Source: Desulfosediminicola ganghwensis (GTDB lineage: Bacteria; Desulfobacterota; Desulfobulbia; Desulfobulbales; Desulfocapsaceae). Taken from it: a DNA stretch of 64,000 nt. Position numbers and translations under genes: made by a program. The DNA lies in NCBI RefSeq assembly GCF_005116675.2, contig NZ_CP050699.1:4397001-4461000 (forward strand), written 5' to 3'. The notes under the pieces were generated by a model. That model saw only the letters and a program-made list of their open reading frames with translations. It was not told the DNA's origin and did not search any database. How positions within the stretch are numbered: the stretch's first letter is position 1; every line of letters begins with the position of its first letter. Shown here piece after piece: positions 2,416-64,000 of the stretch.

Positions 2416-4391
2416 GGTTATTCCCCCCCGCCATCAGACAATTTTTATCAAATTAAAACTTTGCAAACCTTCATATTTAAACTCATAGCATTTTTTACAC
2501 TGGCCACCGGAGACTTCCATCCCCCCCGGTGGCCTTATTAAAGGAACTTTAACATACTCATTCTCAAGCCATATTTAAGAGAATATCAGTCGCGATCTGG
2601 CCTCCGACAATAACATTGATATGTTTGTCCCAAAAACCTTTTCAAAATACGAAAACGAGCATGACCTCTATTCATCATGCTATTATGTGTTTAGTACAGT
2701 TCCTTCATTCGCATATTCTCGCACGATAGAATTATCAGACTACTGGTCAAATGATTAATATAAATATGTCAAAATTATAAATTCCTGAAATTTGTTCGCT
2801 GTAACGTTGCCGCAAATTATACGTCAATGAAATTAGATTATTATTTTGACGTGTATAAAGCACCATATGACAAGGGTTACAGCACCTGAAGTATTTCCCA
2901 TAGGCCAGGTCCACCACTCGAAAGCATTCCAAAATTCATTATTTTTCCATAATTTAACCCCATGCCGATAAAGTGCAGGCCATCTTTTTAGCCCAACGTT
3001 CTGTCACTGCTTTCCCAAACATCTTCCATGAGACCTGAGACAGCAGGCACTACCAAAATCACTCACACTGCATCAAAGTGACAGGCAGGCTCCGTCCGGT
3101 TGGGTTCTGCTTCTCTGTGTTACAGCCACATGCTTCATGCAGCTTCCAGTAGGTGTAAATGGCAGTCAGCTGTTCCATCTTCTTGACGCAAGGTGCTTCA
3201 GTGTGGTGTCTGGTGCTCTTTTTGCCGTTAGGATACATATTCGATTACTAGGCCTTAACAATTACACCGCCGGAGGGTGTGGCGATTGTCACACCTTTAT
3301 TTTTATAGTTGTAAGGTACAATCTGATTACCCAACATAAATGAGAGTTTGAAGATGCTATTTCCCGGAGTCAAAGTACGTAGCCAGCAATTATGCCGACA
3401 ATCACCGTACTCTTTAACAATAAAGACCAAGGGTGAATAACTGCTTTATATAAAAAACAATCCTTCAAACCCAATAATCTGACAATTTATTCCCCAGTAT
3501 TTTTCAACCTATAGGAGTGCCACAACGACGGAGTTGACTTTGCCATACTTTACCACATGGTGGTGATTAAACATTTGGCTCAAGCAATTATTTCCAACTA
3601 TATTTCTCGGTTTAATTGACGATTAATTCATGCTTTAATGGTATATTTTTCTGCAATATTTTGTCAAAACAATCTCTTAAAAAATTTTAAACAACTCGCC
3701 ATTACAACGTAGTATTTCAACATTTAACTTATCACATTCACATCACTTATCTCTTTATTTACGCCCGGAACAATTTACAATATTTTCAAAATCTAGCCTT
3801 CTTTAATGAGACGAATAGTTCATCGACTGACAGACACCTGAATAGGACTTTTTCACCAAGTTATAATAAAATGCTTCAACTGGGATGTGAGGACCAGATC
3901 GATTGATTTGCAACAGCCACATCCCACATTAATCCAGGTTACCCAATCCATATATCTTCTATTTCTTTGTTATTCTTTCAACTTTACCCTCGTTTTGATA
4001 TTTATTGAGAGGGACTCCCCATGTGACATTTCTAACTTTTCATAATTCTCCAATACCAACCCTGCAATGTAGAGACGCCTCGAGAAGGTTTTTTATTTCT
4101 TCAACTGGTCAGAAGTGCCAGAATAACAGCCAAGAAGATGAATTCTCAGTGGTAGATTAATCAGCTGTACCCCTACCGCTGTAACCCAACTCCTTCCCTG
4201 GAGCCATGACGATCGGTTGTTCTTCCTGCCTGCGTTTGGTGAGTGTACGAAATTACGCACTTGGAATGCATCACTCTCGTGGAAAAAACGTGTGGATGGT
4301 TGAGGCAAAGCTCAATTTAGCTTTAAATCTTACAATACATTACAAACAGCTCGTTGTCCGGGAGCTTGGCGCCCGGTACACCTTCCATCAT
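2416..4391. other. 2-kb AT-rich intergenic region
   Basis: This stretch separates the start of the secreted protein gene from the end of the TPR-barrel gene; both are on the minus strand. It is AT-rich (especially 3560-3760) and shows no open frame that looks like a real protein. A 59-codon minus-strand frame at 3059-3238 is hydrophilic and Cys-containing but has no ribosome-binding site and no recognisable domain. A single CGDCH string in a plus-strand frame near 3280-3295 is probably chance. The region may hold old remnants or regulatory DNA; I see nothing firm beyond the hairpin at 2502-2534. Confidence 0.4.
2502..2534. promoter_or_regulatory. 9-bp inverted repeat upstream of the secreted protein gene
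   Basis: GGCCACCGG and its exact complement CCGGTGGCC flank a 15-base loop that includes a run of C. The site lies 87-119 bases upstream of the ATG at 2415 on the minus strand. It has no T tract in the minus direction, so it could be a leader hairpin or an operator rather than a terminator. Function is not known. Confidence 0.3.
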
Positions 4392-6452
4392 TTAAATACT
4401 CAGGTAATACCCTAAATAGATGTAATATTCGTCACTCTGTTCATCAATATCACCATTTCTGAACAACCACCAATAGCCTCCTTCAAATTCCAGGGTAACT
4501 CTGTTTGTTAGCCTGTATTCGAGCCGCAATTCGGGTCCAACCTCAAACGTCTCCGGATTTTCCTTCTTATACTTTTGGTATTTTAGGTCTAATCCGGGAG
4601 CAAACAGCAGCTTGTCACCCATCCTGAATCGACTGTACAGCTGAGAGGCATAGGCATCACAGTAGGTTGTATCGCTGTAATTCAGTTTTGCTGTCCAGAT
4701 GTCATCGGCAAAAAGGAGTCCTACTCCGGTGACTTGTACAAGGTAATACAGCTCGTCATCTGTACCTTCAAATCCCTCCACACCTCCAGACGTTTCTGAA
4801 TCCCCGAGATTTGACCAGGCCACGTCAAATCCTATCTGATACGAATCGTTTATGATATGGTAGAGACCCAGATGAGCTGAGGTGCTGTCGACACTCCGAT
4901 CCTTCGCAAACTGAAGGATCTCCTCCTCATTGTATTGCACAAGCAATTCATCGAGACCGTATACATCCTGGCCAATCAATGCGTTACGTGTGGTTAGAAA
5001 AGGACTTTGTCTGTATTCTCCAGAAACACTGACTGTGGTGTCCTTGTTGAAGTTGAAATTTGCAGTGAAGAGAGCCAGGCTCAATTCCCTGTGATGCAGA
5101 TCGTAATCGGCTAGAAGTAAAAATGTCTTTACCTGATCAATATACCGTGTCTCTCCCCCTACCCCTTCCCGATCTGTTACACCATCGGCCTCCTGATAGA
5201 GGTAAAAGGTGTTAAACTCCCACCTCCCCTCCCAAAGCTGGTAATCCAGGTTCACCCCATAGAATATGGTATCGGTGTCTATCTCTTCATAAGAGGAGAT
5301 CACAGGGAATCCACCGATGAGATTCAAGGTATATTCCGCCCCCATCGGTAGTGATAACTCACCACCGTCATACCTCCCATAGACACCTCCCTTGTTGGCA
5401 TAACTTCGCCCCACTCTCGCCCTGCCATATCCCGTTTTGGCCTCTCCTTCCAAATACAACGAACTGACTCTTCCCCGGTCCTCCCCATCATTGTTCAAAG
5501 TCAATTCATAGCCTGAATCGATCACTCCCCTAAACACATAAACCGGATTCTCGGCAAGATATCTAAGATTAGCATCAGTGGTCACAAGGGATACATCATG
5601 TTCAAAATCTTCATCTTCAAATTTGTATCCTTCCTGTTCCAGAAATTGGGACATTTCTCCATAGAACTGATTACTCCAGTGCTCAGCCAGGCTAGCAGCA
5701 TACAGACCTTGATCATGCCAACCATCCAGGATCACATTGAGTTTTCTTTGCACCCCTTCTCTATTATCCCCTTCAGGATAGAGCTGAAGATACCGTTGAT
5801 ACTCCGCTTTGGCATGGGCATACTGTTTATTGTTGAAACGCGCATCAGCGAGATGCTCCTGTGCATCCTCCCTAATGCCAGGATCAGTTGCCCTCTCAGT
5901 CAGCTTTGTATAGAGTTGAATGGCTTTCCCCAACTCGCCTTTATTCTCGCTTTCCACTGCTGTGAGCAATATTTCTTGTGCCTCATTCAGTGGTATATCA
6001 TAATGATTCACTGGATCATGATGGGCAGTGCGCTTTAGCAACACGACCTCAACCGAACGATAATCATTTCCCTGCCTTACCTCGAAACGTGATTCATCTT
6101 GAAAAGATACCTGCAAATACGGTTCACCACCCTTAGTCCCAGTATATTGAACCCTGATATTCCTGAAAGGGACGATCCTTGATTCGCTGTTTAAGCTCAC
6201 AAAATCTGCAATAGTTGCGCTGGAAACAGGAGCGAGGCGAATAAAAATTTCATCTCCTTCAGAAATGGGAGTGGTACTCACATATCTCATTGGAAAGGTC
6301 AAATGTATGTGAATAACAAGATTACCTGCCTCCCTGCTGATCCTGACATCATCAATGACAGACTCTTTCGCCAGTGAACTTTTCACTGAAAATGCCACGG
6401 CCCAGAAGAATATGAAAACGCACACAATCAGCCTTTCTCTGGTTGTTATCAC
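4392..6452 (-). CDS. TPR-containing outer-membrane beta-barrel protein
   Basis: 686 residues. A signal peptide (about 1-28, cut near SSLAKE) is followed by a beta-rich AMIN-like region (30-145), TPR-like helices (150-250, with the spaced A..LYTKL and A.AEYQRYLQLYP patterns), then a long region of alternating strands rich in Tyr, Trp, Asp and Gly (about 290-686) that looks like an outer-membrane barrel. The layout (TPR then barrel) resembles polysaccharide exporters and Slam-type lipoprotein exporters, but I cannot assign a family. The start is GTG with AGGG seven bases upstream. It lies 33 bases downstream of the 53-haem cytochrome gene, so the two are almost certainly co-transcribed. I infer that it exports, anchors or electrically connects the cytochrome across the outer membrane. 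Confidence 0.75.
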   Translation of the reverse strand: MITTRERLIVCVFIFFWAVAFSVKSSLAKESVIDDVRISREAGNLVIHIHLTFPMRYVSTTPISEGDEIFIRLAPVSSATIADFVSLNSESRIVPFRNIRVQYTGTKGGEPYLQVSFQDESRFEVRQGNDYRSVEVVLLKRTAHHDPVNHYDIPLNEAQEILLTAVESENKGELGKAIQLYTKLTERATDPGIREDAQEHLADARFNNKQYAHAKAEYQRYLQLYPEGDNREGVQRKLNVILDGWHDQGLYAASLAEHWSNQFYGEMSQFLEQEGYKFEDEDFEHDVSLVTTDANLRYLAENPVYVFRGVIDSGYELTLNNDGEDRGRVSSLYLEGEAKTGYGRARVGRSYANKGGVYGRYDGGELSLPMGAEYTLNLIGGFPVISSYEEIDTDTIFYGVNLDYQLWEGRWEFNTFYLYQEADGVTDREGVGGETRYIDQVKTFLLLADYDLHHRELSLALFTANFNFNKDTTVSVSGEYRQSPFLTTRNALIGQDVYGLDELLVQYNEEEILQFAKDRSVDSTSAHLGLYHIINDSYQIGFDVAWSNLGDSETSGGVEGFEGTDDELYYLVQVTGVGLLFADDIWTAKLNYSDTTYCDAYASQLYSRFRMGDKLLFAPGLDLKYQKYKKENPETFEVGPELRLEYRLTNRVTLEFEGGYWWLFRNGDIDEQSDEYYIYLGYYLSI

Positions 6453-6485
6453 TGTTTTCCCTCGAAATATTTTTCTGCTAAGTGA

Positions 6486-9400
6486 TTACATTTTATGACA
6501 TTTGCTACACTGATTGTTTGTACCCGGATGATCAGCAGGCATCCCCCCGGGACCAGTTGCGGTATGGCATGAAATGCATGAACCGAGAACATAATCGTGA
6601 TCAACATCACTGGGAATCCACCCATTAGTGGTATGACACCCACTACAATCATCACTACTCCGCAAATGACCTGACGGTTTTCCCTGGGCTGTGGTGCCAT
6701 TATGGCAACTTGCGCATGCCCCAATCACCTCCGAGTGTTCGACCACTGCCGGTTGCCAACCGCGAACTGTATGACAGGCATCGCAGTTGTTGCTGCTGCT
6801 TATGTGATTCGCAGGCTTGCCCACCGCAGTACTGCCGTTATGGCAGTTGGCACACGATCCCAGTACCTCCGAATGATCCACGTTAGCTGGAACCCAGCGA
6901 CTGGTGCTGTGACAGGCATCGCAACCATTGCTGCTGCTTATGTGGTCCGCAGGCTTGCCCACCGCCGTACTGCCGTTATGACAGTTGGCACACGATCCCA
7001 GTACCTCCGAATGATCCACGTTGGCTGGAACCCAGCGACTGGTGCTGTGACAGGCATCGCAACCATTGCTGCTGCTTATGTGATCCGCAGGCTTGCCCAC
7101 CGCCGTACTGCCGTTATGGCAGTTGGCACACGATCCCAGTACCGCCGAATGATCGACGTTGGCTGGAACCCAACGACTGGTGCTGTGACAGGCATCGCAG
7201 GTATTGCTGCTGCTTATGTGATTCGCAGGCTTGCCCACCGCCGTACTGCCGTTATGGCAGTTGGCACACGATCCCAGTACCGCCGAATGATCGATGTTAG
7301 CTGGAACCCAGCGACTGGTGCTGTGACAGGCATCGCAGGTATTGCTGCTGCTTATGTGATTCGCAGGCTTGCCCACCGCCGTACTGCCGTTATGGCAGTT
7401 GGCACACGATCCCAGTACCGCCGAATGATCGACGTTGGCTGGAACCCAGCGGCTGGTGCTGTGACAGGCATCACAGGTATTGCTGCTGCTTATGTGGTCC
7501 GCAGGCTTGCCCATCGCCGTACTGCCGTTATGGCAGTTGGCACACGATCCCAGTACCGCCGAATGATCGACGTTGGCTGGAACCCAGCGACTGGTGCTGT
7601 GACAGGCATCGCAACCATTGCTGCTGCTTATGTGATCCGCAGACTTGCCCACCGCCGTACTGCCGTTATGGCAGTTGGCACACGATCCCAGTACCGCGGA
7701 ATGATCGACGTTGGCTGGAGCCCAGCGGCTCGTGCTATGACAGGCACCGCAGTTGTTGCTGCTCGGGATGTGCGAGGCGGGTTTACCCGGGGCCTGGCTA
7801 CCGTTATGGCAACTGGCGCAACCACCCGTTACGGCCGAATGATCGACGTTGGCTGGCACCCAGCGACTGGTGCTGTGACAGGCGCCGCAGTTATTGCTGC
7901 TTGGGATATGCGAGGCGGGTTTGCCCGGGGCCTGGCTACCGTTATGGCAACTGGCACAACTCCCCGTTACAGCCGAATGATCGACGTTAGCTGGAGCCCA
8001 GCGACTGGTGCTGTGACAGGCGCCGCAGTTATTGCTGCTTGGGATATGCGAAGCTGGCTTGCCCGGAGCCTGGCTACCGTTATGGCAACCGGCGCAACCA
8101 CCCGTTACGGCCGAATGATCAACATTGGCTGGAGCCCAGCGACTGGTGCTGTGACAGGCGCCGCAATTATTGCTGCTTGGGATATGCGAAGCTGGCTTGC
8201 CCGGAGCCTGGCTACCGTTATGGCAACCGGCGCAACCACCCGTTACGGCCGAATGATCAACATTGGCTGGAACCCAGCGGCTGGTGCTGTGACAGGCACC
8301 GCAGCTATTGCTGCTCGGGATATGCGAAGCTGGCTTGCCCGGAGCCTGGCTACCGTTATGGCAACCGGCGCAACCACCCGTTACGGCGGAATGATCAACA
8401 TTGGCTGGAACCCAGCGGCTGGTGCTGTGACAGGCGCCGCAGTTATTGCTGCTCGGGATGTGGGAAGCTGGCTTGCCCGGAGCCTGGCTACCGTTATGGC
8501 AACCGGCGCAACCACCCGTTACGGCGGAATGATCAACATTGGCTGGAACCCAGCGGCTGGTGCTGTGACAGGCACCGCAGTTATTGCTGCTCGGGGGGTG
8601 CGAAGGGGGTTTGCCTGGGGCCTGGCTACCATTATGACATCCTGCACAACTTCCCTTTACAGCAGAGTGATCCATATGCGCTGGTGACCAGCGGTTTGTA
8701 TTGTGGCAACCTTCACAATCGTTACTGATCTTTGTATGTGTCAGGGGTTTGCCTGGAGCACTACTACCGTTATGGCAACCTCCACAGCTACCTGTTACTG
8801 CAGAATGATCAACATTGGCTGGCGTCCATTGTTTTGTACCATGACAGTCATCACAATTATTATTTGTCGTAATATGTGAAACAGGTAGCCCTTGAACCAG
8901 TCTGCCATTGTGACAACTCTCACAATTGCCGGACACCCTTGAGTGATCCATACGAACCCGCCGCCAAGGACTCGTCAAGTGGCAGTCGCCACAATTATTC
9001 ATGTCGTTGGAGTGCGTCACAGGCTTGCCCGTTGCCAGGTAACCATCATGGCAACGTATGCATGCACCAGTTAAAGCAGCATGATTTACTCGTATATCAG
9101 TCCACCGTTTGGTTGTGTGACAATCGTCGCACGATACCGCGGTGACGAGATGTCTGACCGGTTTTCCTTTAGCTAAACGATCATCATGACACTCACGGCA
9201 CGGCCCGCGCACCTCCCAATGATCCATTTTAAACAGATCCCAGGAGATTGTGTTGTGGCAACTTTCACAGCGGCTCGAAACGAGAAGGTGTACTACTGAA
9301 TTTCGTTGGGCGACCCTTTCAAGATGACAATCAACACATGGACCTGAAACAGCATTATGATCTACTGCCGTCATACTCCACCTGGCGGTAGTATGACAAT

Positions 9401-10256
9401 CCCCACACTGTTCTGAAGCGATCATATGGTTCAAGTTCTTTCCAGGCGCTATCTTGCCGTTATGGCAATCCCCGCATGCACCTTCCACCAACGAGTGGTC
9501 AACCTTGGTCCACCTCCAGTTTCTGAACCAATGACAATCATCGCACTGTCCTGAAACACGTATATGATTCTCAGTCTTTCCGGGTGCTGTCTTGCCGTTA
9601 TGACAATCGTCGCATGCACCTCGTACCGAAGAGTGGTCAACCTTAATCGGGTGCCAGTCATTGACTGCATGACAACCTTCACACCGATCAGAAGCAGGAA
9701 TATGGTTTTTCCCCTTGCCGATCGCTATCTTCCTATCGTGACAACTGCTACATGCGCCCACCAATCCATTGTGGTCGACCTTTATCGGGTGCCAGTCATT
9801 GATCGCATGACAAGCATCACAATCATCTGAAGTACGTATGTGGTTCTCAGCTTTCCCGAATGCGATCTCTCCATCATGGCAACTGTAGCATTCACCAAGT
9901 ATCGCAGTGTGGTCGACTTTTATCGGGTGCCAGTCTGTAAACGTATGGCAGAGATAACAGTCGGGTTTGGACTGAATATGGTGTTCGTGTTTTGCTTCCG
10001 CAATTTCCCCATTGTGACATTCGGAGCAATTTTTTCGACTGATCCTCTCATGATAGAAATCAAAGTCCCCATTGTCCGGGTCAATATGGCAGAAATCACA
10101 TTGCTTTTCGGTAACCGGATGTGCCACCTCCAAGAAGTCTGCCACATTAATGCCCCATGATCTATTCGCCGGAATCAGAAAAAAGACACATGCAATTCCA
10201 ACAAATAAAAACACCTCTCCCAGTGATTTCAATCCAAACGCTGAAGACCTCTCCAC
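6486..10256 (-). CDS. Giant repeat multihaem c-type cytochrome, 53 CXXCH
   Basis: 1256 residues with a signal peptide (about 1-35) and, by direct count, 53 CXXCH haem-binding motifs (first Cys at 53, last at 1250). From the second motif on, every motif starts exactly 23 residues after the previous one, with no insertion or deletion over 52 motifs. Each 23-residue unit also has one further His (in GKP..H or VDH), enough for bis-His ligation. A conserved Trp (STSRW) occurs in every second unit. Units 22-49 are nearly identical in sequence. The start is GTG behind AGGGGAG. There is no transmembrane segment besides the signal and no lipobox, so the protein is periplasmic or extracellular. It is co-oriented with the TPR-barrel gene 33 bases downstream. 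A role in long-range electron transfer is inferred; substrate and direction are unknown. Confidence 0.93.
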   Translation of the reverse strand: MERSSAFGLKSLGEVFLFVGIACVFFLIPANRSWGINVADFLEVAHPVTEKQCDFCHIDPDNGDFDFYHERISRKNCSECHNGEIAEAKHEHHIQSKPDCYLCHTFTDWHPIKVDHTAILGECYSCHDGEIAFGKAENHIRTSDDCDACHAINDWHPIKVDHNGLVGACSSCHDRKIAIGKGKNHIPASDRCEGCHAVNDWHPIKVDHSSVRGACDDCHNGKTAPGKTENHIRVSGQCDDCHWFRNWRWTKVDHSLVEGACGDCHNGKIAPGKNLNHMIASEQCGDCHTTARWSMTAVDHNAVSGPCVDCHLERVAQRNSVVHLLVSSRCESCHNTISWDLFKMDHWEVRGPCRECHDDRLAKGKPVRHLVTAVSCDDCHTTKRWTDIRVNHAALTGACIRCHDGYLATGKPVTHSNDMNNCGDCHLTSPWRRVRMDHSRVSGNCESCHNGRLVQGLPVSHITTNNNCDDCHGTKQWTPANVDHSAVTGSCGGCHNGSSAPGKPLTHTKISNDCEGCHNTNRWSPAHMDHSAVKGSCAGCHNGSQAPGKPPSHPPSSNNCGACHSTSRWVPANVDHSAVTGGCAGCHNGSQAPGKPASHIPSSNNCGACHSTSRWVPANVDHSAVTGGCAGCHNGSQAPGKPASHIPSSNSCGACHSTSRWVPANVDHSAVTGGCAGCHNGSQAPGKPASHIPSSNNCGACHSTSRWAPANVDHSAVTGGCAGCHNGSQAPGKPASHIPSSNNCGACHSTSRWAPANVDHSAVTGSCASCHNGSQAPGKPASHIPSSNNCGACHSTSRWVPANVDHSAVTGGCASCHNGSQAPGKPASHIPSSNNCGACHSTSRWAPANVDHSAVLGSCANCHNGSTAVGKSADHISSSNGCDACHSTSRWVPANVDHSAVLGSCANCHNGSTAMGKPADHISSSNTCDACHSTSRWVPANVDHSAVLGSCANCHNGSTAVGKPANHISSSNTCDACHSTSRWVPANIDHSAVLGSCANCHNGSTAVGKPANHISSSNTCDACHSTSRWVPANVDHSAVLGSCANCHNGSTAVGKPADHISSSNGCDACHSTSRWVPANVDHSEVLGSCANCHNGSTAVGKPADHISSSNGCDACHSTSRWVPANVDHSEVLGSCANCHNGSTAVGKPANHISSSNNCDACHTVRGWQPAVVEHSEVIGACASCHNGTTAQGKPSGHLRSSDDCSGCHTTNGWIPSDVDHDYVLGSCISCHTATGPGGMPADHPGTNNQCSKCHKM
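6717..7682 (-). repeat. Tandem 138-bp repeat block B (7 units)
   Basis: Seven consecutive 138-bp units encode haem motifs 36-49 of the giant cytochrome. The unit type is CANCHNGSTAVGKPADH then CDACHSTSRWVPANVDH. Units 1-6 are almost identical at the DNA level; the second half of the last unit diverges. The Leu-Gly before the next motif and the CDACH motif separate this block from block A. Confidence 0.9.
7683..8648 (-). repeat. Tandem 138-bp repeat block A (7 units)
   Basis: Seven consecutive 138-bp units encode haem motifs 22-35. The unit type is CAGCHNGSQAPGKPASH then CGACHSTSRWVPANVDH. Units are nearly identical to each other but clearly distinct from block B, so the two blocks were amplified or homogenised separately. 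Haems 1-21 upstream keep the same 23-residue spacing but have diverged sequences. Confidence 0.9.
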
Positions 10257-10714
10257 AGCCCTCTCCCCTTGGTGTTTGGATATTCCCTTCAGGACAACTG
10301 CTTGCCAGCTACCTGTTTACGCTTTCCACTTTATGTCGATTAATTAAAACCATGAAATGTTCTTCGACGAGGACAAGACGCCCCATGAACCTCTCTGGCA
10401 CATTCATTGTGTATCACAAACCGTACAATGAATTCCCCGGTCGACGCCTATTGCTCCAAGGCCTGTTTACCCTCAAAATGACGCCTTGGACATCCCGGCA
10501 AGAATTGTTACTATATAGAATTGGCTACTACATTTTTCGATGCCATTCCGAATGGTACAGACATGTTATCGATGAATTCAAGTCATAATTGTCACCTTCA
10601 AAACCGTAAAAACGTTTTTACCCGCATTTCTAATCCCTTCAGGCAGCACAGGTTTTGTAGTTTTTGCGAATGAACCATAATGGCCTGCGGAGTCTACAAT
10701 TAGCAAACAGGCTT
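10257..10714. other. Intergenic region upstream of the cytochrome gene
   Basis: No convincing gene. It should contain the promoter of the cytochrome/TPR-barrel operon and the end of the MCE operon transcript. A perfect 16-bp palindrome, GTAAAAACGTTTTTAC, is at 10606-10621. I could not place a clear sigma-70 or sigma-54 promoter by eye. Confidence 0.4.
10606..10621. promoter_or_regulatory. 16-bp perfect palindrome
   Basis: GTAAAAACGTTTTTAC is fully self-complementary with no loop, which suits a dimeric protein-binding site better than a hairpin. It lies about 95 bases after the lipoprotein gene and about 350 bases upstream of the cytochrome start. It could be an operator for the cytochrome operon or part of a terminator for the MCE operon. 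Confidence 0.3.
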
Positions 10715-31214: not shown

Positions 31215-32162
31215 ATGAATACCAACTACGGAATGGAAATTGTTCGGGCAACGGAAATCGCAGCTCTTACCGCCGCCCGAATGCAGGGCCTGGGCGACCA
31301 CGATGATATTCTCAACACCACCCGTGCCGCAATCATCAAGACCTTGAATCGAATAAATGTGGACGGCACTATTATCAACGACCGTTTTAACGATCGTGAA
31401 GATATCATCCCCCTGCCCAGAAAAATCGGCCGGGGAGGCGAAAAATCTGATGTAATGGCGATCGCTCTGGAGGGTTATCACAACGCCTCAGACGGTAGAA
31501 ACAACGTTACATCTTTTGCCGCCATTACCACAGCAGGATCGATTCAATCGGTCCCCAATCTGGCGATGTACAAGATTGTCGTCGGGCCAGGAGTCGGCAA
31601 CGTTATTGACATCAACCAGCCGCCGATCGTCAACGTCAAACGCACAGCCCGTGCATTACGTAAATATACAGAAAATGTAACGGTCTGCATTCTTAACCAG
31701 GCAAGGCACCACCAACTCATCCGGGAAGTTCGCAGCTGCGGTGCACGCATCAAGCTGATTGACGAGGGAGAAATCTCAGGCTGTCTTGCTGCCATCACCG
31801 GCCAGAAAGCTGATATTTACATGGGATATGGCTACGCACCCGAGGGTGCCATGGTCGCCGCAGCCATCAGTTGCCTCGGGGGATACTTTGAAGGTAAGAT
31901 TTTTTATGAAAATGACCGCGACAGAGCCCTGGCCGCAGAACACGGTATCAAGGACTTCGACAAGACCTTCAGGGCCCAGGATCTGATAGGCAGTAAAGAG
32001 GTCGCTATTGCCGCAACTGGCGTTACTGACGGAGAATTCCTTGAAGGCGTACAATTCACGTCCAATGGCGCAGTAACCTATTCCTTCATTGCCCGAGGCG
32101 AGACCCATACCAACCGTAAGCTTGAATCACGGCACTTCTTCGACTACAAACCAGTTTTTTAG
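31215..32162 (+). CDS. GlpX-like (class II FBPase family) protein lacking key metal ligands
   Basis: 315 residues that align with GlpX over the full length (EIVRATEIAALTAARMQGLGD, NVDGTIIN, KIVVGPGVGNVID, YAPEGAMVAAAISCLGG). However, compared by eye with E. coli GlpX, the metal ligands Asp33, Glu57 and Asp85 correspond to Leu33, Arg57 and Ile83 here; the DPIEGT motif reads IALEGY. Only the ligands equivalent to Glu88 and Glu213 remain. Standard FBPase activity is therefore doubtful. Position right after an intact class III FBPase gene suggests a regulatory, structural or altered-substrate role in the same pathway. Confidence 0.8.
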   Translation: MNTNYGMEIVRATEIAALTAARMQGLGDHDDILNTTRAAIIKTLNRINVDGTIINDRFNDREDIIPLPRKIGRGGEKSDVMAIALEGYHNASDGRNNVTSFAAITTAGSIQSVPNLAMYKIVVGPGVGNVIDINQPPIVNVKRTARALRKYTENVTVCILNQARHHQLIREVRSCGARIKLIDEGEISGCLAAITGQKADIYMGYGYAPEGAMVAAAISCLGGYFEGKIFYENDRDRALAAEHGIKDFDKTFRAQDLIGSKEVAIAATGVTDGEFLEGVQFTSNGAVTYSFIARGETHTNRKLESRHFFDYKPVF

Positions 32163-32467
32163 CTTGATTATTGTAGAAAATAGAATGCAAAATGCAGAGT
32201 AGAAGAGAATAAACGCTTTGCATTTTGTTCTATCGCGCTTGTTTCATGTTGTTTTGTACTGAATATCTCTTTATTATCAATTTGACACGTTCGTTCCGAT
32301 AGTACCCGTGTAACATCACGGCCAGGGAAAAGGGAGAGGCCAAGCTCGCCTGGGCATTTGTTTCAGCTTCAGGTCCATTCGCCGTTTGCATCTCCTGAAC
32401 CAGGAAGCAAAGCTGTACCCACTACCTTGCTGAACCATGTGCATATTGCATGGAAGAGGAGACTTGT
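32163..32467. other. Intergenic region with a long hairpin, upstream of the hydrogenase
   Basis: An inverted repeat at 32180-32196 and 32219-32233 (15 bp with a two-base bulge, AT-rich) lies just after the GlpX-like gene and may terminate that operon. The remainder should carry the hydrogenase promoter. No other gene is seen. Confidence 0.5.
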
Positions 32468-33403
32468 GTGAAGCCCACTCTATTCTGGTTACAAGGTGCA
32501 GGCTGTGGCGGGGACACTGTGGCCCTGCTCAACGCCGAATCGCCTGACATTATCGAAACTCAGGATGCCCTGCGCTTCGAAATACTCCACCATCCTTTCT
32601 TCTCCGACAGAAATGCAGATTCATCTGTAATTATTGACCAAATATCGTCAGGGCAAATCAAGTTAGACGTTTTTTGCCTGGAAGGTGCAATCACACTCGG
32701 GCCTGAAGGAACCGGCATGTTTCAGACGGTCCAGGGTCGGCCGAAGCACGAGATCATTCGCATCCTCGCCTCCAATGCACGACTTGTCTTTGCCATCGGC
32801 ACCTGTGCATCTTACGGAGGAATCAGCCACGCCTGTGATCCCGACGCCATCGGCCTGCAGTTTACAGGTGACCAGGCAGGAGGATTTCTCGGCAAAGATT
32901 TCAGGAGCTTAGACGGATTCCCTGTTATCAACCTGCCTGGCTGCCCCGTGCACCCCACAGTACTGATAGGTGCCGTCAGCGGTTATCTCCATGCCAACGA
33001 CTTGCCTTTAAACGAATTCCAGGCTCCTCTCGAGTACTATTCCATGCTGGTCCATCAGGGATGCACCAGAAACGAGTACCATGAATTTCGAGTTGAAGAG
33101 ACCGACTTTGGTCAAACGGGCTGCCTGTTTTATCATCTCGGCTGTCATGGCCCACTCGCCCACGGCCCCTGCAATAAACTGCTCTGGAACAACCGTAACT
33201 GCAAAACCAGAAACGGTGTACCATGTTTTGGCTGCACTCAGCCTACTTTTCCAAAACCTGAGCCATTTTTCCAGACACCTAACATTGCAGGCTTGCCTAT
33301 AAATCTTCCAGATGGCGTAGACAGGCCACACTACCTTGCCTACAAAGGTATGGCAGCCGCCGCTGCACCCGAAAGATTGAAACAAAGAAAGTCGAGGGTC
33401 TGA
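32468..33403 (+). CDS. [NiFe] hydrogenase small subunit, group 2-like
   Basis: 311 residues without a Tat signal, as in cytosolic group 2 enzymes (cyanobacterial HupS/HupU type). Iron-sulfur ligands visible: QGAGCGGD at the start (the second Cys of the usual CxxC is Asp; cyanobacterial HupS has Asn), GTCASYGG, LPGCPVHP, VHQGC, GC..LGC and PCNKLLWNNRNC.PCFGC. Phrases such as GLQFTGDQAGGFLGKDF are characteristic of this group. I chose the GTG at 32468, six bases after AGAGGAG, over the ATG at 32450, which has no ribosome-binding site. It overlaps nothing and the large-subunit gene starts two bases after its stop. Confidence 0.88.
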   Translation: MKPTLFWLQGAGCGGDTVALLNAESPDIIETQDALRFEILHHPFFSDRNADSSVIIDQISSGQIKLDVFCLEGAITLGPEGTGMFQTVQGRPKHEIIRILASNARLVFAIGTCASYGGISHACDPDAIGLQFTGDQAGGFLGKDFRSLDGFPVINLPGCPVHPTVLIGAVSGYLHANDLPLNEFQAPLEYYSMLVHQGCTRNEYHEFRVEETDFGQTGCLFYHLGCHGPLAHGPCNKLLWNNRNCKTRNGVPCFGCTQPTFPKPEPFFQTPNIAGLPINLPDGVDRPHYLAYKGMAAAAAPERLKQRKSRV

Positions 33404-33404
33404 G

Positions 33405-34976
33405 ATGAACAGAACCGCATCCAGCGTTATCAATATGCCAATCAATCGTGTTCAGGGAGATCTCGAACTTGCTCTTGAGGTTCAAGCCAACAAGGTTACC
33501 AACGCCTGGTCTTCCTCTACGCTTTATCGTGGCTTTGAAAATATGCTCAAAGGCCGTGGTGCTCGTGATGGACTGGTCATCACCCCAAGAGTGTGCGCTC
33601 TCTGCTCCACCGCCCATCTTTTCGCAGCAGTCACCGCACTTGAACAGATCTGCGATGTCACTCCACCCAACAACGCAATCCTGGTTCGTAATATTTGCCT
33701 GTTGGCTGAGCATGTGCAGAGTGATATCCGGCATGGAGTACTCTCCTTTTTCAAAGATTTCATGAATCCCGCCTATGCCGGGCTGCCACTTTATGAGGAG
33801 GCGTGCAGGAGATACGCATCCCTCCGTGGTGAATCCGTCATCGAAACAATACGTATGACCAAGAAGATCCTCGAGGTTGTCGCAATTTTCGGTGGTCAAT
33901 GGCCTAACTCATCGTTCATGGTACCCGGAGGCATTGCCGGTATTCCCTCTTTTAACGATCTGGTCAGCTGCCAATATATCGTCAACCTGTTCCGCAGCTG
34001 GTATGAGCAGCGTATCCTCGGATGCACCATCGAACGCTGGTCCGAAGTACGCAGTGAAATCGACCTGCAGCGCTGGATGAACGAACAGGAAGCTCACTTC
34101 AACAGCGACCTTGGCTTTTTCATCCGTTTCTCTCATATGATCAGGCTTCACGAACTCGGCGCTGGCAATGGTAATTTCATGAGCTTCGGTCATCCCCATT
34201 TACCAAACCAGGCCCCCGGAACTCATGTTCAACCAGGCAATGAACATGACTCCGGTATACACACCGACTCCTCCAATACCCTCGGCATTGACACTCATTT
34301 TGGAGCTGGGGTCATAATCGACAACATTTTTCACCCTTTTGACCAAAGCAAGATCAGCGAACACGTGGCCTATTCCCATTTCAAGGACTATAACGGTGGC
34401 AGACATCCTTCCGAAGGGATTACTGATCCTGTAACTGCGCGCTATGAAAAAGTGAAATATTCGTATGCCAAAGCGCCACGCTACGATGAGTTGCCCGTCG
34501 AAACAGGGCCGCTGGCTCACATGCTGGTGAGCAGGAATCCGCTCTTTACCGATATTGCCAGATCACGGGGCCCAAATGTCTACCTGCGCGAGATGGCCCG
34601 TATTGTCAGGCCCGCCATACTGCTGCCAAAAATGCACACATGGCTTGAGCAGATTGACGCCAAAGCCCCCTATTACACTACCGTCGGTTCCATACCAGAT
34701 GGTAAAGGTCACGGGCTCATCGGTGCCAGTCGGGGAGCACTTGGTCACTGGGTTGAAATAGAGAACTCGCGCATAAAACGATATCAGATTATCACCCCGA
34801 CCAGCTGGAATGGTTCACCACGGGACCAAAACAGCATTCCTGGCCCCTGGGAAAGTGCGGTTATCGGAACCTCTATAGAAAATAGAGACAACCCTATCGA
34901 GGTAGAACATATTATCCGCTCTTTTGACCCTTGCCAGTCCTGCTCGGTCCATACCGCTCAAAAGGCCAAAAGGTAG
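33405..34976 (+). CDS. [NiFe] hydrogenase large subunit, group 2-like
   Basis: 523 residues. Active-site motifs: L1 RVCALCSTAH (usual RxCGxC, with Ala for Gly) and L2 DPCQSCSVH near the C-terminus, giving the four nickel-binding Cys. Conserved GGQWPNSSFMVPGG also fits. The N-terminal proton-gate motif, RIEGH or RVEGD in the family, reads RVQGD: Gln17 replaces the Glu equivalent to E. coli Hyd-1 Glu28. Only seven residues (TAQKAKR) follow the last ligand, a short but cleavable tail; a maturation protease gene lies 11 bases downstream. The enzyme would bind H2 in the cytoplasm, with altered proton transfer. Confidence 0.9.
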   Translation: MNRTASSVINMPINRVQGDLELALEVQANKVTNAWSSSTLYRGFENMLKGRGARDGLVITPRVCALCSTAHLFAAVTALEQICDVTPPNNAILVRNICLLAEHVQSDIRHGVLSFFKDFMNPAYAGLPLYEEACRRYASLRGESVIETIRMTKKILEVVAIFGGQWPNSSFMVPGGIAGIPSFNDLVSCQYIVNLFRSWYEQRILGCTIERWSEVRSEIDLQRWMNEQEAHFNSDLGFFIRFSHMIRLHELGAGNGNFMSFGHPHLPNQAPGTHVQPGNEHDSGIHTDSSNTLGIDTHFGAGVIIDNIFHPFDQSKISEHVAYSHFKDYNGGRHPSEGITDPVTARYEKVKYSYAKAPRYDELPVETGPLAHMLVSRNPLFTDIARSRGPNVYLREMARIVRPAILLPKMHTWLEQIDAKAPYYTTVGSIPDGKGHGLIGASRGALGHWVEIENSRIKRYQIITPTSWNGSPRDQNSIPGPWESAVIGTSIENRDNPIEVEHIIRSFDPCQSCSVHTAQKAKR

Positions 34977-34987
34977 GACATTCGCCT

Positions 34988-35443
34988 ATGCGTATCCGCA
35001 TAATCTGTATAGGAAACAGATTCTTCCAACCGGATAGCGGTGGTCCCCGTGTTCACGATATACTGCTTGGAATGGAGTTCCCTGCTGCGGTGGAATGTAT
35101 TGATGGTGGGTTACATGGGCTCAACCTACTGCTATTGCTTGAGGACGTAGACCACGTCATCTTTGTAGATTCTGTTGAAGGCTTTCTGCCGGAAGAAGTG
35201 AATGAAGGAGTGGTCATTGTTGAAGATCCGGTATTTGACCTGGAATACCAGGAAAATCACGACCACAACTCAGGCCTGGCATACTTGTTACGCACTGCTC
35301 CACTCGTAGTCGAATCTGCCATGCCGGGAATCTATCTGGTAGGGGTGGAGGGTTTTCCAAGTTCAAGGCTCTGCGAAGAAGCTGCCCGAAAATGCCGGAT
35401 ACTTGCCCTGACTCTCCTCAAATCCACAGCAATAAAGGCATAA
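34988..35443 (+). CDS. Hydrogenase maturation endopeptidase (HyaD/HupD-like)
   Basis: 151 residues from the ATG at 34988. Pattern of the family: IICIGNRFFQPDSGGPRV at the start, CIDGGLHGLNLLLLLED in the middle and a His-rich ENHDHNSGL segment that supplies the third metal ligand. It removes the C-terminal tail of the large subunit after nickel insertion. It follows the large-subunit gene directly, which supports processing of the unusual short tail. A longer frame from 34931 overlaps the large subunit and lacks family similarity. Confidence 0.85.
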   Translation: MRIRIICIGNRFFQPDSGGPRVHDILLGMEFPAAVECIDGGLHGLNLLLLLEDVDHVIFVDSVEGFLPEEVNEGVVIVEDPVFDLEYQENHDHNSGLAYLLRTAPLVVESAMPGIYLVGVEGFPSSRLCEEAARKCRILALTLLKSTAIKA

Positions 35444-60397: not shown

Positions 60398-63300
60398 TTA
60401 ACTGTTCAGCCAGGTAAGAGCTTCAGTCATGGTGTTCTGATCAAACTTGAGGCGAAGCTTCAGATATACGCCGCTTGCCGTATACGTGCTCTGCGAGAAG
60501 TCTTCATCGTGGAATCCCATAAAATTGTAACCCAGGCTGGCCCAAAGATTGTTCGCAAAAAGATAACCGATCGAGGCTCCGGAACTGTAATCGAACTGAC
60601 CGCTGTTCCATGAGTGCAGCACGCTGCCGTGCAGACCGAGGTCCCAGCGGCTGTTCAGGTTATAGCGTGTCTCCAGGGCGACCAGGTCGGTAAAGCCGCC
60701 ATAGTGTGAGTCATCGATGTTTTCACGGACATATTTCAAACCATAGTAGGGAGCGATCTGCCAGCTACGACTGGGCTTGTAGTTGCCCTGCAGGTTGTTG
60801 ATAAATCGCCACGCCTTGTCGTCATGCTGGGAACTTTCATCCCGCTCGTATATGGCGTCCAACCGATTCAGGATAATCCAGCGACTCTCGCGGGGCCGGT
60901 AGGCCAGGCCGAGGGTCAGCTCCTGCTCGTTGCTCGTAGCACCGTCAGCACTGTCCGTGTAATACCCGGTATATCTGGCTGAGGCGGACATACCTTTGCG
61001 GATCTGACCGATCAGGCTTGAAATCACGCCGTACTTATCTTCGTCGTCACCGTGGCGGAATTCCAACCGGTTGTCCCAGGACCAGCTCTTTTGCTGGTAG
61101 CTGGCGCCCAGCGAGACAGCTGTGAAATCCTCATCGCTGCCATGGGCGTCAGGGACATCCACGTCAAAATCGTAGCTGTCAGCTTCCTTGATGGTGTAGC
61201 TGCGATCGAGGCTGGCGTCCACGCTCCAGTTCTCGCTCACTTGCCAGGTCTGGCCAAGGCCGAACAGGGCGAAGAGCCGTTCTCCATTCTCATTGAGCTG
61301 CCGTTCAATGGTGGTCTGTGCGTCGCTGCCGCGCCAGGGTGATGCCTTGATACCGGCCCTCGTCCCCTCGCTGGTTACATCATCCCCCCAGCTGAATTCC
61401 TGTTCGGCAAACAGGCTGACCTGCTTGCTTATCCGGTAATCGGCCCCGAACAGGGTCTGGGTGGGATAATCGGTATTTTCGTTCTTACCGCCAAGCGATT
61501 GATCGTGCTGGGCACGCAGGGTCAGTTTGCGGTCGGCGGTGGTCCAGTTGCCGCCGGTCAGCAGCTGCTGACTGTGCTTGCTGCTGCCATCCCCGAGACT
61601 ATCCCTGGCGTCACGGACACCGGCACTGATCGAGAACCGGTCATACTCCAGGTCGCCGCCAAGCTCCACCACATCCCGCTGGGCATCGGTGGTCAGGTTG
61701 TCCTCATGATAGGCCAGCGCTGAGATCGATGCCTCATCATTGATGCGGTAGCTCCCCTCGGCGCCATACTTGCGGGTTCCCGACTCACTGCCGTTCTGCT
61801 GCCCTAGCCCGAACTCCTCATCCTGTTCACGAAAATAGACACTCCCCTGCAGCGTGCTGGACGTGTGCATATACTCGACGAGATAGGCCTCGCCGTTTTG
61901 ATCCAGGGAAGCATCCTCGGTGTCGGTGGTGGCTGCTTCCAGCCGCAGACTGTTGTTTGCGTTGAACCGGATAGTGGCGTCGACACCGTACAAATCACCC
62001 TCGTCGACACCGGAGTCTTCATGGATCAGAGAAGCACCTACCTCCAGCTTCTGGTCCAACATTTTGACTGCCGCACGCCCGCCGTAATTGAACTCACTCT
62101 GGTTCGAGGTCCTGGTTTCGTAGTCGGCAACGATGAAGATCGGGTTGAAGCTTTCGTCCTTGCTGGCGATGGGCCGCTTGAAAAAGAGTGTGCCGTCCCC
62201 GTAATCGATGTTGTAATCGATGTGCCGCTGCATGGTCTGGGAACTGAGGATCTTCTCGCTCTGAAACCGATCCCGGGTCTCGATGACGATCGTCTCCGAG
62301 TTGATGACCAGATCCTGATGGGACAGGTAATAGCGCCCGGAAGTTCCATCGCCGCGAATCTCGTCCTTCACAAACCCCTGCCTGGTGTCGGCCGCGAACA
62401 GGTTGAACTCGATCTTTTCGCCCTGCAGTTCCGATTTAAAGCCGTTCATGCTGCGGCTGTAGCGGGACAGCTCGGTTTGGGTCAGGCCGGTCTGCATGTC
62501 GCCAAAGAGGGCATAGAATTGATTTTTTTCCAGCTTCACGTAGATCTTACGGGCGCTGGCGGCCTCGTAGCTCTGCTGGGTCTCGTCTCCGTAGAGGGGA
62601 TAGTAGCTATCCGGATCGATGATCTGGTACAGGCTGTCGCCATCCAACTCCTCCTTGTCGGAATCATAGGCCACGGTCAACAGCCATTCACCCTTGATGG
62701 CGCCCTTGGCAAAAAACTTGATCCGGCCGTCCTCGTAGAAATGGTCGTCGACCTCCGCCTCATCCAGGCTGACCTGGTTGCCGGAGAGGGTGTTGTAGCC
62801 CAGCGTCCCTTCGGCAAAGCCGACCAGGATCCACTCCCGGGCGACCGGTTTCAACCAGGCGCTGATCTCTTCAGTCTCATCTTCCAGCGGCAGACGGACC
62901 ACTGCCTCACCGGATTGCGGGGTCGGTTCCAGAATGATCCTGGCAACCCCGTCCGGGCCGACCTGATATTTTGGCCTGTCGGTATCAAGGCTGCTGTTTT
63001 TTTCCGACTTGTCGATCAATTGACTGTAGGGCGGCTCGACCGAGAATTCTCCGATCATGCCGCTGCTGACCGGATAGCCGTCCCGGTCGGTGAGGCGCAC
63101 CGCAATCACCGGCGGGGTCTTGCCGTCTGCAACCAGGGTCGATTGATCCTTGACCAGCTCGGCATGGGCTGGTCCGAACGAGTAGTGGACCAGGCGGGTC
63201 AACTGCTCGACCAGCTTGCCATTCGCATCGTACAGATCGGCTGTCAGGTTATTGTCGCCCTTGTTGATACCGATCCCGCGCCAGATGGAGACCGCTGTCG

Positions 63301-64000
63301 AACCGGCCTGGTTTGCAGTGGTGCCTTCAAAGGCCAACGGACTGACATCCCGGCCGTCGAGCCGCAGTTTGACCTTCAGCCCGGCGGCGTGTTTGATGGC
63401 GGCCTTGATACTCGGGATCGCCGGTGTTTTGCCCGGCTGCGGCCAGAGCCATTCCGTACCCGCATCGGCGTTTGCCAGCCACGCCTTGTCGTAGGCCGGC
63501 ATTTTCTCAGGATCCGGCAGGTCCTTTTCCGGCAGCTCACCATCCGCACCAGGCCGCAGACCGACGGTCTCCGTCTGCTGCAGGCCGCTATTGTCCTTGG
63601 CTAGATCCAGGATTTGTGTATTATCAATCCGTTTTCCTTCGTTCCGGATCAGATTGTCGACCATCGGGGTTCTCTGGTTCTGCTGTGCCGGGGAGTTGAA
63701 GGTCAAAATGGTGCGGAGCGCCATTTCCTGCGGCGCGCCCACGCCAACCCTGGTCTTCAGGGTGATCTCCCCGTGCCAGCCGGCAAGCCCGTCACCCAGC
63801 CGGTAAGTCAGAACCGGTGGTTTCCCTCCCGGATCATCTATTGCCTGGTCACCAAGGCGGCTGCTGCCGGTGAGATACTCAAGCCCTTTGGGCAAAATGA
63901 CGCTAAGCCGCAGGTTCTTCAGGTCAACCTGGCTGATCCCCAGCGGGATCTGCCATGAAACGATATCTTCATCAAGCGTGCTGTTCAGTTCGATAGTGAC
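60398..64000 (-). CDS. Very large outer-membrane beta-barrel protein with Ig-like N-terminal part (5' end outside window)
   Basis: At least 1200 residues; the frame stays open to the right edge, so the start lies beyond 64000. The visible N-terminal part includes invasin-like Ig domains (KDQSTLVADGKTPPVIAVRLTD, GVARIILEP), then a conserved segment (FAEGTLGYN, IKFFAKGAIKGEWLLTVAYDS, YYPLYGDETQQSYEAASARK) typical of a family of giant DUF11-type outer-membrane proteins, then a C-terminal barrel of long Tyr/Trp-rich strands to the end (VYLKLRLKFDQ). GC content is clearly higher than in neighbouring genes, which suggests acquisition or a different expression class. Role in adhesion or transport is not known. 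Confidence 0.85.
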   Translation of the reverse strand, partial: VTIELNSTLDEDIVSWQIPLGISQVDLKNLRLSVILPKGLEYLTGSSRLGDQAIDDPGGKPPVLTYRLGDGLAGWHGEITLKTRVGVGAPQEMALRTILTFNSPAQQNQRTPMVDNLIRNEGKRIDNTQILDLAKDNSGLQQTETVGLRPGADGELPEKDLPDPEKMPAYDKAWLANADAGTEWLWPQPGKTPAIPSIKAAIKHAAGLKVKLRLDGRDVSPLAFEGTTANQAGSTAVSIWRGIGINKGDNNLTADLYDANGKLVEQLTRLVHYSFGPAHAELVKDQSTLVADGKTPPVIAVRLTDRDGYPVSSGMIGEFSVEPPYSQLIDKSEKNSSLDTDRPKYQVGPDGVARIILEPTPQSGEAVVRLPLEDETEEISAWLKPVAREWILVGFAEGTLGYNTLSGNQVSLDEAEVDDHFYEDGRIKFFAKGAIKGEWLLTVAYDSDKEELDGDSLYQIIDPDSYYPLYGDETQQSYEAASARKIYVKLEKNQFYALFGDMQTGLTQTELSRYSRSMNGFKSELQGEKIEFNLFAADTRQGFVKDEIRGDGTSGRYYLSHQDLVINSETIVIETRDRFQSEKILSSQTMQRHIDYNIDYGDGTLFFKRPIASKDESFNPIFIVADYETRTSNQSEFNYGGRAAVKMLDQKLEVGASLIHEDSGVDEGDLYGVDATIRFNANNSLRLEAATTDTEDASLDQNGEAYLVEYMHTSSTLQGSVYFREQDEEFGLGQQNGSESGTRKYGAEGSYRINDEASISALAYHEDNLTTDAQRDVVELGGDLEYDRFSISAGVRDARDSLGDGSSKHSQQLLTGGNWTTADRKLTLRAQHDQSLGGKNENTDYPTQTLFGADYRISKQVSLFAEQEFSWGDDVTSEGTRAGIKASPWRGSDAQTTIERQLNENGERLFALFGLGQTWQVSENWSVDASLDRSYTIKEADSYDFDVDVPDAHGSDEDFTAVSLGASYQQKSWSWDNRLEFRHGDDEDKYGVISSLIGQIRKGMSASARYTGYYTDSADGATSNEQELTLGLAYRPRESRWIILNRLDAIYERDESSQHDDKAWRFINNLQGNYKPSRSWQIAPYYGLKYVRENIDDSHYGGFTDLVALETRYNLNSRWDLGLHGSVLHSWNSGQFDYSSGASIGYLFANNLWASLGYNFMGFHDEDFSQSTYTASGVYLKLRLKFDQNTMTEALTWLNS

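Follow-up and report, generated by a model that had tools for sequence, protein, structure and literature searches.

The 64,000-nucleotide stretch of Desulfosediminicola ganghwensis DNA analysed here (contig NZ_CP050699.1; in the following, the window) carries the gene of a 53-haem cytochrome and, directly behind it, a gene for a probable outer-membrane β-barrel protein with a tetratricopeptide repeat (TPR)-like region. Both are encoded on the minus strand and are discussed below as the two parts of a putative electron conduit. The cytochrome gene (6486..10256) starts with GTG, encodes 1256 amino acids (aa) and was assigned by its translation and by Pfam (Cytochrome_C7). A purine-rich, ribosome-binding-like stretch is visible by eye 5' of the GTG (10260..10270, minus strand). 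The first ~35 residues (10152..10256, minus strand) form a hydrophobic stretch, likewise recognized by eye, and are regarded as a putative signal peptide. The partner gene (4392..6452, minus strand; 686 aa) begins 33 base pairs (bp) past the cytochrome stop codon and is preceded by its own ribosome-binding-like stretch, read from the sequence (6459-6463, minus strand). This gene was overlooked in a preliminary description of the same DNA. Two plus-strand open reading frames (ORFs) across the cytochrome gene, 6702-8687 and 8039-8728, look like shadow frames of its repeats. Rfam and tRNA scans of the 64-kb window yielded no matches, and promoter and terminator scans revealed no signal beyond that of shuffled sequences.

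Translation of the minus strand from 10256 to 6486 is uninterrupted and yields 53 CXXCH motifs, the number given in the preliminary description. The 23-residue register claimed there for motifs 2 to 53 was found, too: among the 52 intervals, that between motifs 1 and 2 measures 24 residues and the remaining 51 of 51 measure 23. Position 17 of the unit, 7 residues ahead of the next motif, is occupied by His in all 52 complete units. Viewed from the motifs, His is located at -7 in 52 of 53 cases; motif 2 is the exception with His at -8, and His46 is the distal-position His for motif 1, 7 residues ahead. The single extra His per unit noted earlier applies strictly to 47 of the 52 units; units 2 (two), 3, 5, 7 and 21 contain six surplus His. 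With cleavage of the signal peptide assumed after residue 35, the mature chain contains 106 Cys, two for each of 53 motifs, and 112 His, of which 53 are proximal, 53 distal and 6 additional. Its apoprotein mass calculates to ~127.6 kDa, to which 53 haems would add ~32.7 kDa. The sole Cys outside the CXXCH motifs is within the putative signal peptide. These Cys and His counts match the demand of 53 bis-His haems, in line with the ligation suggested earlier. The same holds for the proposed c7-type repeats: PF14522 (Cytochrome_C7) was matched in 27 stretches with 231.7 bits at a gathering cut-off of 24.8 bits (E 4.9e-70). Chance is no contender as the source of the motif and spacing pattern.

The true repeat comprises 46 aa with two haems, first a W-type and then a GK-type one. 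Four regions can be distinguished, all on the minus strand. Motifs 2-22 (residues 77-559, 8580..10028) are mostly diverged and spaced by exactly 23 residues. They are followed by block A with six near-identical two-haem units of 138 bp (units 11-16, residues 560-835, 7752..8579) and block B with seven such units (units 17-23, residues 836-1157, 6786..7751). The C-terminal part (residues 1158-1256, 6486..6785), delimited by motif positions and repeat comparison, consists of diverged units and motif 53. Near-copies make up 13 of the 25 two-haem units, and neighbours within a block share 91-97% DNA identity. Since these units are recent near-copies, they inherited their equal spacing, which has little value as evidence. 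The old N-terminal two-haem units 1-9, over which divergence was measured, share 42% of their aa on average, and 30% if the ligand columns are left out. Here, a spacing of exactly 23 despite divergence suggests that the register is under constraint. In 11 adjacent comparisons within blocks A and B, 47 synonymous and 21 non-synonymous codon differences were counted. The cytochrome looks to be under selection, because the recent copies differ mostly at synonymous codons. Growth of the gene by two-haem duplication, i.e. by 138-bp tandem units, is supported by this repeat pattern. A collapse of repeats during assembly, which had been considered a threat to the haem count, is unlikely if long reads were used, because the longest exact repeat in the gene is 121 bp and the genome was assembled as one contig of 5,653,142 bases.

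Matches to the whole cytochrome at E ≤ 0.001 were obtained in 22 of 58 relatives including its own genome, with 24-35% identity outside the latter. A scan of named genomes returned three loci (L022, L023, L024). L022 from the Proteobacteria metagenome-assembled genome WH4.bin33 (G058) contains four consecutive cytochromes with 23, 33, 73 and 37 motifs. Intervals of 23 account for 12/22, 22/32, 47/72 and 25/36 of their spacings, respectively; the rest are 24, with a few of 26-28. His is found at -7 in 18/23, 28/33, 71/73 and 35/37 motifs. The cytochrome at a second locus of the same genome (C135) has 41 motifs, 32 of 40 intervals of 23 and His at -7 in 37 of 41 cases. In G318, a genome from the phylum of D. 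ganghwensis, a cytochrome with 29 motifs has 24 of 28 intervals of 23, all in one unbroken run. The wire of a further genome, G060, contains N runs and was counted only as pieces of 11 and 8 motifs. The proposed search for proteins of different repeat number was successful: the six homologues that could be counted keep the basic 23-residue spacing and span 23 to 73 haems (23, 29, 33, 37, 41, 73). The longest unbroken 23-residue core is that of the 53-haem protein with 51 intervals; the next one seen is that of G318 with 24.

The five G058 homologues break the register with intervals of 24, 26, 27 or 28, and an unbroken core was found only in G318. As all five interrupt it, the strict register is not needed by the whole family. 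This weakens the earlier conclusion that a strict register implies a regular superhelix: the G058 proteins lose the register yet mostly keep His at -7, whereas the 24 straight intervals of G318 speak in favour of the conclusion. L023 and L024 are more distant and were left out of the register comparison. The L023 protein (44 motifs) alternates between spacings of 17 and 22 and has His at -7 in 1 of 44 cases, and L024 encodes proteins with 25 and 16 motifs of mixed spacing. Cytochromes from G041, G043, G045 and G054 (42 to at least 94 motifs) were rejected as register homologues: their spacing is different, with intervals of 23 in 18 of 41 cases at best. Giant cytochromes occur in the same order as D. 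ganghwensis (L034, L035, L036; G054 C22, G043 C80). The G054 ORF, an open frame of 4471 aa, has at least 94 CXXCH motifs and the G043 ORF 86, both with irregular spacing and without the 23-residue register. In L022 (512-16543), the last two of the four tandem cytochromes have a proline-rich stretch near the C terminus and, behind it, a terminal Gly/His tail.

The partner protein comprises a probable signal peptide, an N-terminal domain, a TPR-like region and a probable outer-membrane β-barrel, and has homologues at four further loci. The TPR/YfiO-like region (residues 158-232, 5757..5981, minus strand) was matched weakly by PF13525 (E 5.5e-5) and TIGR03302 (E 1.9e-10), both below their cut-offs. 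The probable barrel extends from about residue 250 to the end (4392..5705, minus strand). Over the C-terminal 470 residues, segments of alternating hydrophobicity exceed those of shuffled sequences with z 2.8 for the window protein and 2.3, 2.4, 2.7 and 1.4 for its homologues. In four of the five members, GYR is followed by a short C-terminal tail with F in terminal or near-terminal position; the window protein ends in GYYLSI. Outer-membrane proteins often have such F-containing C-termini. On this indirect evidence, the partner is a probable outer-membrane β-barrel protein. An AMIN-like N terminus was a by-eye impression that found no support in Pfam and was dropped. A comparison of the partner gene with plasmid records gave no match.

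Cytochrome and barrel genes occur together. A barrel homologue is present in two of the three genomes of L022, L023 and L024, and a profile search added one in the phylum (G318). At all five barrel loci, which belong to four genomes (the window, two loci in G058, one each in G060 and G318), a 23-register cytochrome gene precedes the barrel gene in the same orientation. The two genes are separated by 33 bp in the window, 2 bp at G058 C135, 516 bp at G058 C126 and 70 bp in G060. In G318, a 160-aa ORF that matches the N-terminal part of the barrel profile lies between them. Among 395 genomes of the phylum, two match the barrel profile over its full length (851.1 and 611.7 bits). Barrel matches at E ≤ 0.001 were seen in 73 genomes, 71 of which were excluded as they reach at most 38.6 bits, mostly with the TPR part. 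The wire profile at E ≤ 1e-20 also matches 2 of 395 genomes, and these are identical to the barrel-positive two.

The adjoining TPR/β-barrel gene favours an outer-membrane conduit over a free extracellular wire, the reading implied in the preliminary description. For the latter, the cytochrome would be exported through or by the TPR-barrel protein and act alone or polymerize outside. A chain that binds 53 haems and contains hardly any further sequence would suit such a role. In addition, TPR-plus-barrel proteins serve as export devices in other systems, and the partner matches Pfam TPR_Slam, if only with E 0.048 and 14.5 bits (cut-off 35.2). On the other side, no solved nanowire matches the wire profile with a significant E-value; 7tfs_A, which we take to be the OmcE filament, appeared only at E 1.7. 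Furthermore, no assembly interface is readable in the sequence. A free nanowire is therefore regarded as quite improbable. In the same comparison with the Protein Data Bank (PDB), the best of 23 chains were 9eov_A (labelled MtrC, E 7.9e-8) and 6r2q_A (E 5.3e-6), the latter an Mtr complex entry according to the accessible part of PMC12133095. Only these first two were used. The tail of the matches is driven by composition, because artificial ATP-binding proteins score E 0.026-0.077. With the cytochrome as single sequence, no PDB match at E ≤ 1 was obtained.

The surroundings of the two genes differ between D. ganghwensis and its relatives. At all four other barrel loci, a protein is encoded that combines WX3HX13H (twice) with SGXXG (once), as is the case at the more distant locus in G059. 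This combination is the published signature of the inner-membrane proteins of PCC3 and PCC4 in the available text of PMC5566968. PCC3 gene content is described there as porin, extracellular cytochrome, periplasmic cytochrome and inner-membrane protein. The same four loci encode a protein resembling Fe-S/FAD pyridine-nucleotide reductases (Pfam was run on the G318 protein only), and three of them, with G058 C135 as exception, an 18-21-haem cytochrome. Together with barrel and wire, this corresponds to the PCC3 gene set. Ankyrin-repeat proteins were observed in these PCC3-like clusters upstream of the inner-membrane protein gene, at L096 11412-13523 (G318; Sel1 and ankyrin by Pfam) and L032 10346-11992 (G060; by eye).

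In the D. ganghwensis genome, a PCC3-type inner-membrane protein was not found at E ≤ 1, neither with a single sequence nor with a five-row profile. The single query from G060 reaches distant members, since it recovers the G058 and G059 proteins at 27-33% identity; matches of the profile in its own source genomes hold by construction. A 21-haem periplasmic cytochrome was not found in the genome at E ≤ 0.001 with one query, which in the window matched only the wire and, at E 0.22, one further stretch. As both the inner-membrane protein and the ~21-haem periplasmic cytochrome were sought and not found, the locus was not classed as PCC3. This means, the wire would have to be fed by other multihaem cytochromes. 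Candidates are present: 13 places outside the cytochrome gene were detected in the genome, and nine of the 11 inspected have ORFs with 3 to 11 CXXCH motifs. In addition, two Cytochrom_C_asm matches (c-type maturation) were found.

Alternatively, the two genes could be without function and represent what is left of a PCC3-type cluster that was acquired by transfer and stripped of its inner-membrane protein and periplasmic cytochrome. Apart from the lack of these two components, this would agree with the absence of cytochrome and partner matches at E ≤ 0.001 in three other genomes of the genus. In two same-genus genomes, the genes past the Mla-like operons differ; G002 was left out of this comparison (no Mla match at the limit set). 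A remnant does not explain, however, why 1256 codons and 53 haem-binding sites are intact, why recent repeat copies change mostly synonymously and why both genes are complete, each with a ribosome-binding-like stretch. Moreover, no remnants of the missing genes were detected within the window at E ≤ 1 with inner-membrane, Fe-S/FAD, ankyrin and small N-terminal queries. Decay of a former cluster is thus considered very unlikely.

Peptidoglycan may be involved in the system as well. The G318 cytochrome (L096 5212-8712) has three N-terminal SPOR domains ahead of its haems (Pfam, E 2.7e-22), and Pfam detected SPOR domains in the barrel proteins of G318 and G060, too. SPOR binds peptidoglycan. The location of the domains ahead of the G318 haems suggests that the N-terminal end of a SPOR-bearing wire is on the periplasmic side. 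The same domains can be cited in favour of another role, that of an electron store: the cytochrome would buffer electrons as a capacitor in the periplasm, on the peptidoglycan side, and secretion or anchoring would be the task of the barrel protein. The lack of a PCC3-type inner-membrane feed would fit as well, and storage has also been raised in the literature (PMC10734462, available text). Against a store stands the pairing with a probable outer-membrane barrel at five of five loci. In D. ganghwensis itself, neither cytochrome nor partner has a SPOR match at E ≤ 0.1. Altogether, an electron store is considered unlikely, albeit less so than a free nanowire.

The most probable reading, in which we have reasonable though not full confidence, is that the two genes encode a two-component porin-cytochrome conduit that resembles PCC3, has a single-chain haem wire and lacks the usual inner-membrane feed. 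Motif and ligand counts, gene pairing, the joint phyletic pattern and the non-detection of two usual partners at the stated sensitivity are observations; export, the location of the barrel, threading, electron transport and its direction are inferred. In this conduit, the outer membrane would house the 686-aa TPR/β-barrel protein. After export, the 53-haem protein, with all haems bis-His ligated, would thread through the barrel or dock on it and, as an unbroken haem chain with minimal peptide, move electrons between periplasm and outside. Other multihaem cytochromes of the organism would feed the wire. Its haem number, and hence reach or capacity, may shift in two-haem steps through 138-bp tandem duplication. 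Solved cytochrome wires measure ~8 Å per haem, and a typical cell envelope is narrower than ~40 nm. If extended at this spacing, the 53-haem chain would be roughly 40 nm long and exceed the envelope width.

Several points weigh against this conduit. The barrel assignment leans on C-terminal residues, on weakly scoring family matches and on a rough measure of periodicity (z 1.4 to 2.8), and the window partner itself lacks the terminal F. Two of the defining PCC3 components were looked for in the genome and not detected. AlphaFold2 models are of low confidence, with a mean predicted local distance difference test score of 47.1 for 12 haems (60-row alignment) and 43.8 for six units (63-row alignment). 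The three SPOR domains of the G318 homologue fit poorly with the published label 'extracellular'. The term 'tetratricopeptide' does not occur in the available text of PMC5566968, which describes PCC3 porins with up to 42 transmembrane regions. Finally, PCC3 itself is functionally unverified according to the accessible part of PMC12442390.

A wider view is offered tentatively and is more doubtful than the conduit as such. The homologues might form a family of single-chain wires of genetically tunable length that originate at the peptidoglycan, with SPOR as anchor in one homologue, and cross a dedicated TPR/SPOR β-barrel. In D. ganghwensis, this would be a self-contained two-gene conduit fed by general periplasmic cytochromes without a dedicated inner-membrane partner. 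Within such a family, a strictly repeating haem structure would be expected most readily of the 53-haem member, and its near-perfect register makes it attractive for solving the structure of a wire. If the conduit reading holds true, a single gene would specify a haem chain without covalent breaks that grows or shrinks by two haems at a time, and the homologues with 23 to 73 haems would provide a natural series for the length dependence of electron transport. Judging from the two-gene form, a conduit may need no more than barrel and wire, with an exchangeable inner-membrane part. The peptidoglycan-binding domains on a homologue provide a clue to the orientation of the wire.

Other features of the window were noted in passing. 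Between the barrel gene and a DUF11/CARDB-like gene, ~2 kb (2416-4391, GC 0.395) are devoid of a long ORF, of Rfam matches and of remnants of the missing PCC3-type genes. The latter gene (397-2415) encodes a large exported-looking protein with sub-threshold DUF11/CARDB matches, and the product of 60398-64000 is similar by eye only. At 32450-35443, genes for the small and large subunits of a [NiFe]-hydrogenase are followed by that of a probable maturation protease (by eye). A probable class II fructose bisphosphatase gene (31215-32162, by eye) lies ahead of these hydrogenase-like genes.

Among the known systems, several with barrel-associated or very large cytochromes can be compared with the two genes. 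The likeness to OmcKL, judged by description, consists of a porin and a cytochrome without a periplasmic cytochrome gene beside them (PMC10553843, available text). With MtrAB, MtoAB and PioAB (decahaem cytochromes of the DmsE family), the locus shares the pairing of a haem chain with an outer-membrane barrel, and 6r2q_A was the second-best solved match. However, the cytochrome reaches 169.1 bits with the DmsE/MtrA family, below the cut-off of 192.2, and has 53 instead of 10 haems in uniform 23-residue units. OmcS, OmcE and OmcZ are likewise described as bis-His haem chains for long-range transport (PMC12954529, accessible part), but they are polymers of 4-, 6- and 8-haem subunits without significant sequence match to the 53-haem protein. 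The 86-haem cytochrome of Desulfuromonas acetexigens resembles it as a very large multihaem cytochrome, reported as expressed there; it is set apart by its description as not being in a complex (PMC12133095, available text).

The closest likeness is that to PCC3 (He et al., 2017, PMC5566968; for Gallionellaceae, PMC10734462; both as far as their text was available). Shared are a many-haem, repeat-rich, peptide-minimal cytochrome beside a probable outer-membrane barrel and the low number of residues per haem, 23.7 here and 22-39 in PCC3 cytochromes (PMC5566968). Furthermore, the four related loci, not the window locus, carry the PCC3/PCC4 inner-membrane signature. The haem number of PCC3 extracellular cytochromes varies widely (median 34, up to 85; PMC5566968), and their AlphaFold2 models are long and mostly linear (PMC10734462). 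By contrast, the D. ganghwensis locus comprises two genes, and searches of the genome gave neither a periplasmic 21-haem cytochrome nor a PCC3-type inner-membrane protein. Its barrel protein has a TPR-like region, and two homologues have SPOR domains, neither of which was met in the available text of PMC5566968; the porins were compared by description. The continuous single-chain wire claimed in the preliminary description is still the best reading; the idea is not new, as such wires were already proposed for PCC3 cytochromes (PMC5566968, available text). Nor is the haem count of 53 a record, since 85 (PMC5566968) and 86 (PMC12133095) have been published. Within the partial coverage of the literature, no report on a 23-residue cytochrome repeat and none linking the SPOR domain with multihaem cytochromes was found. 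As far as the searches reach, the D. ganghwensis system differs from those known in how long its register runs without a break, in consisting of two genes and in its association with TPR/SPOR barrel proteins.

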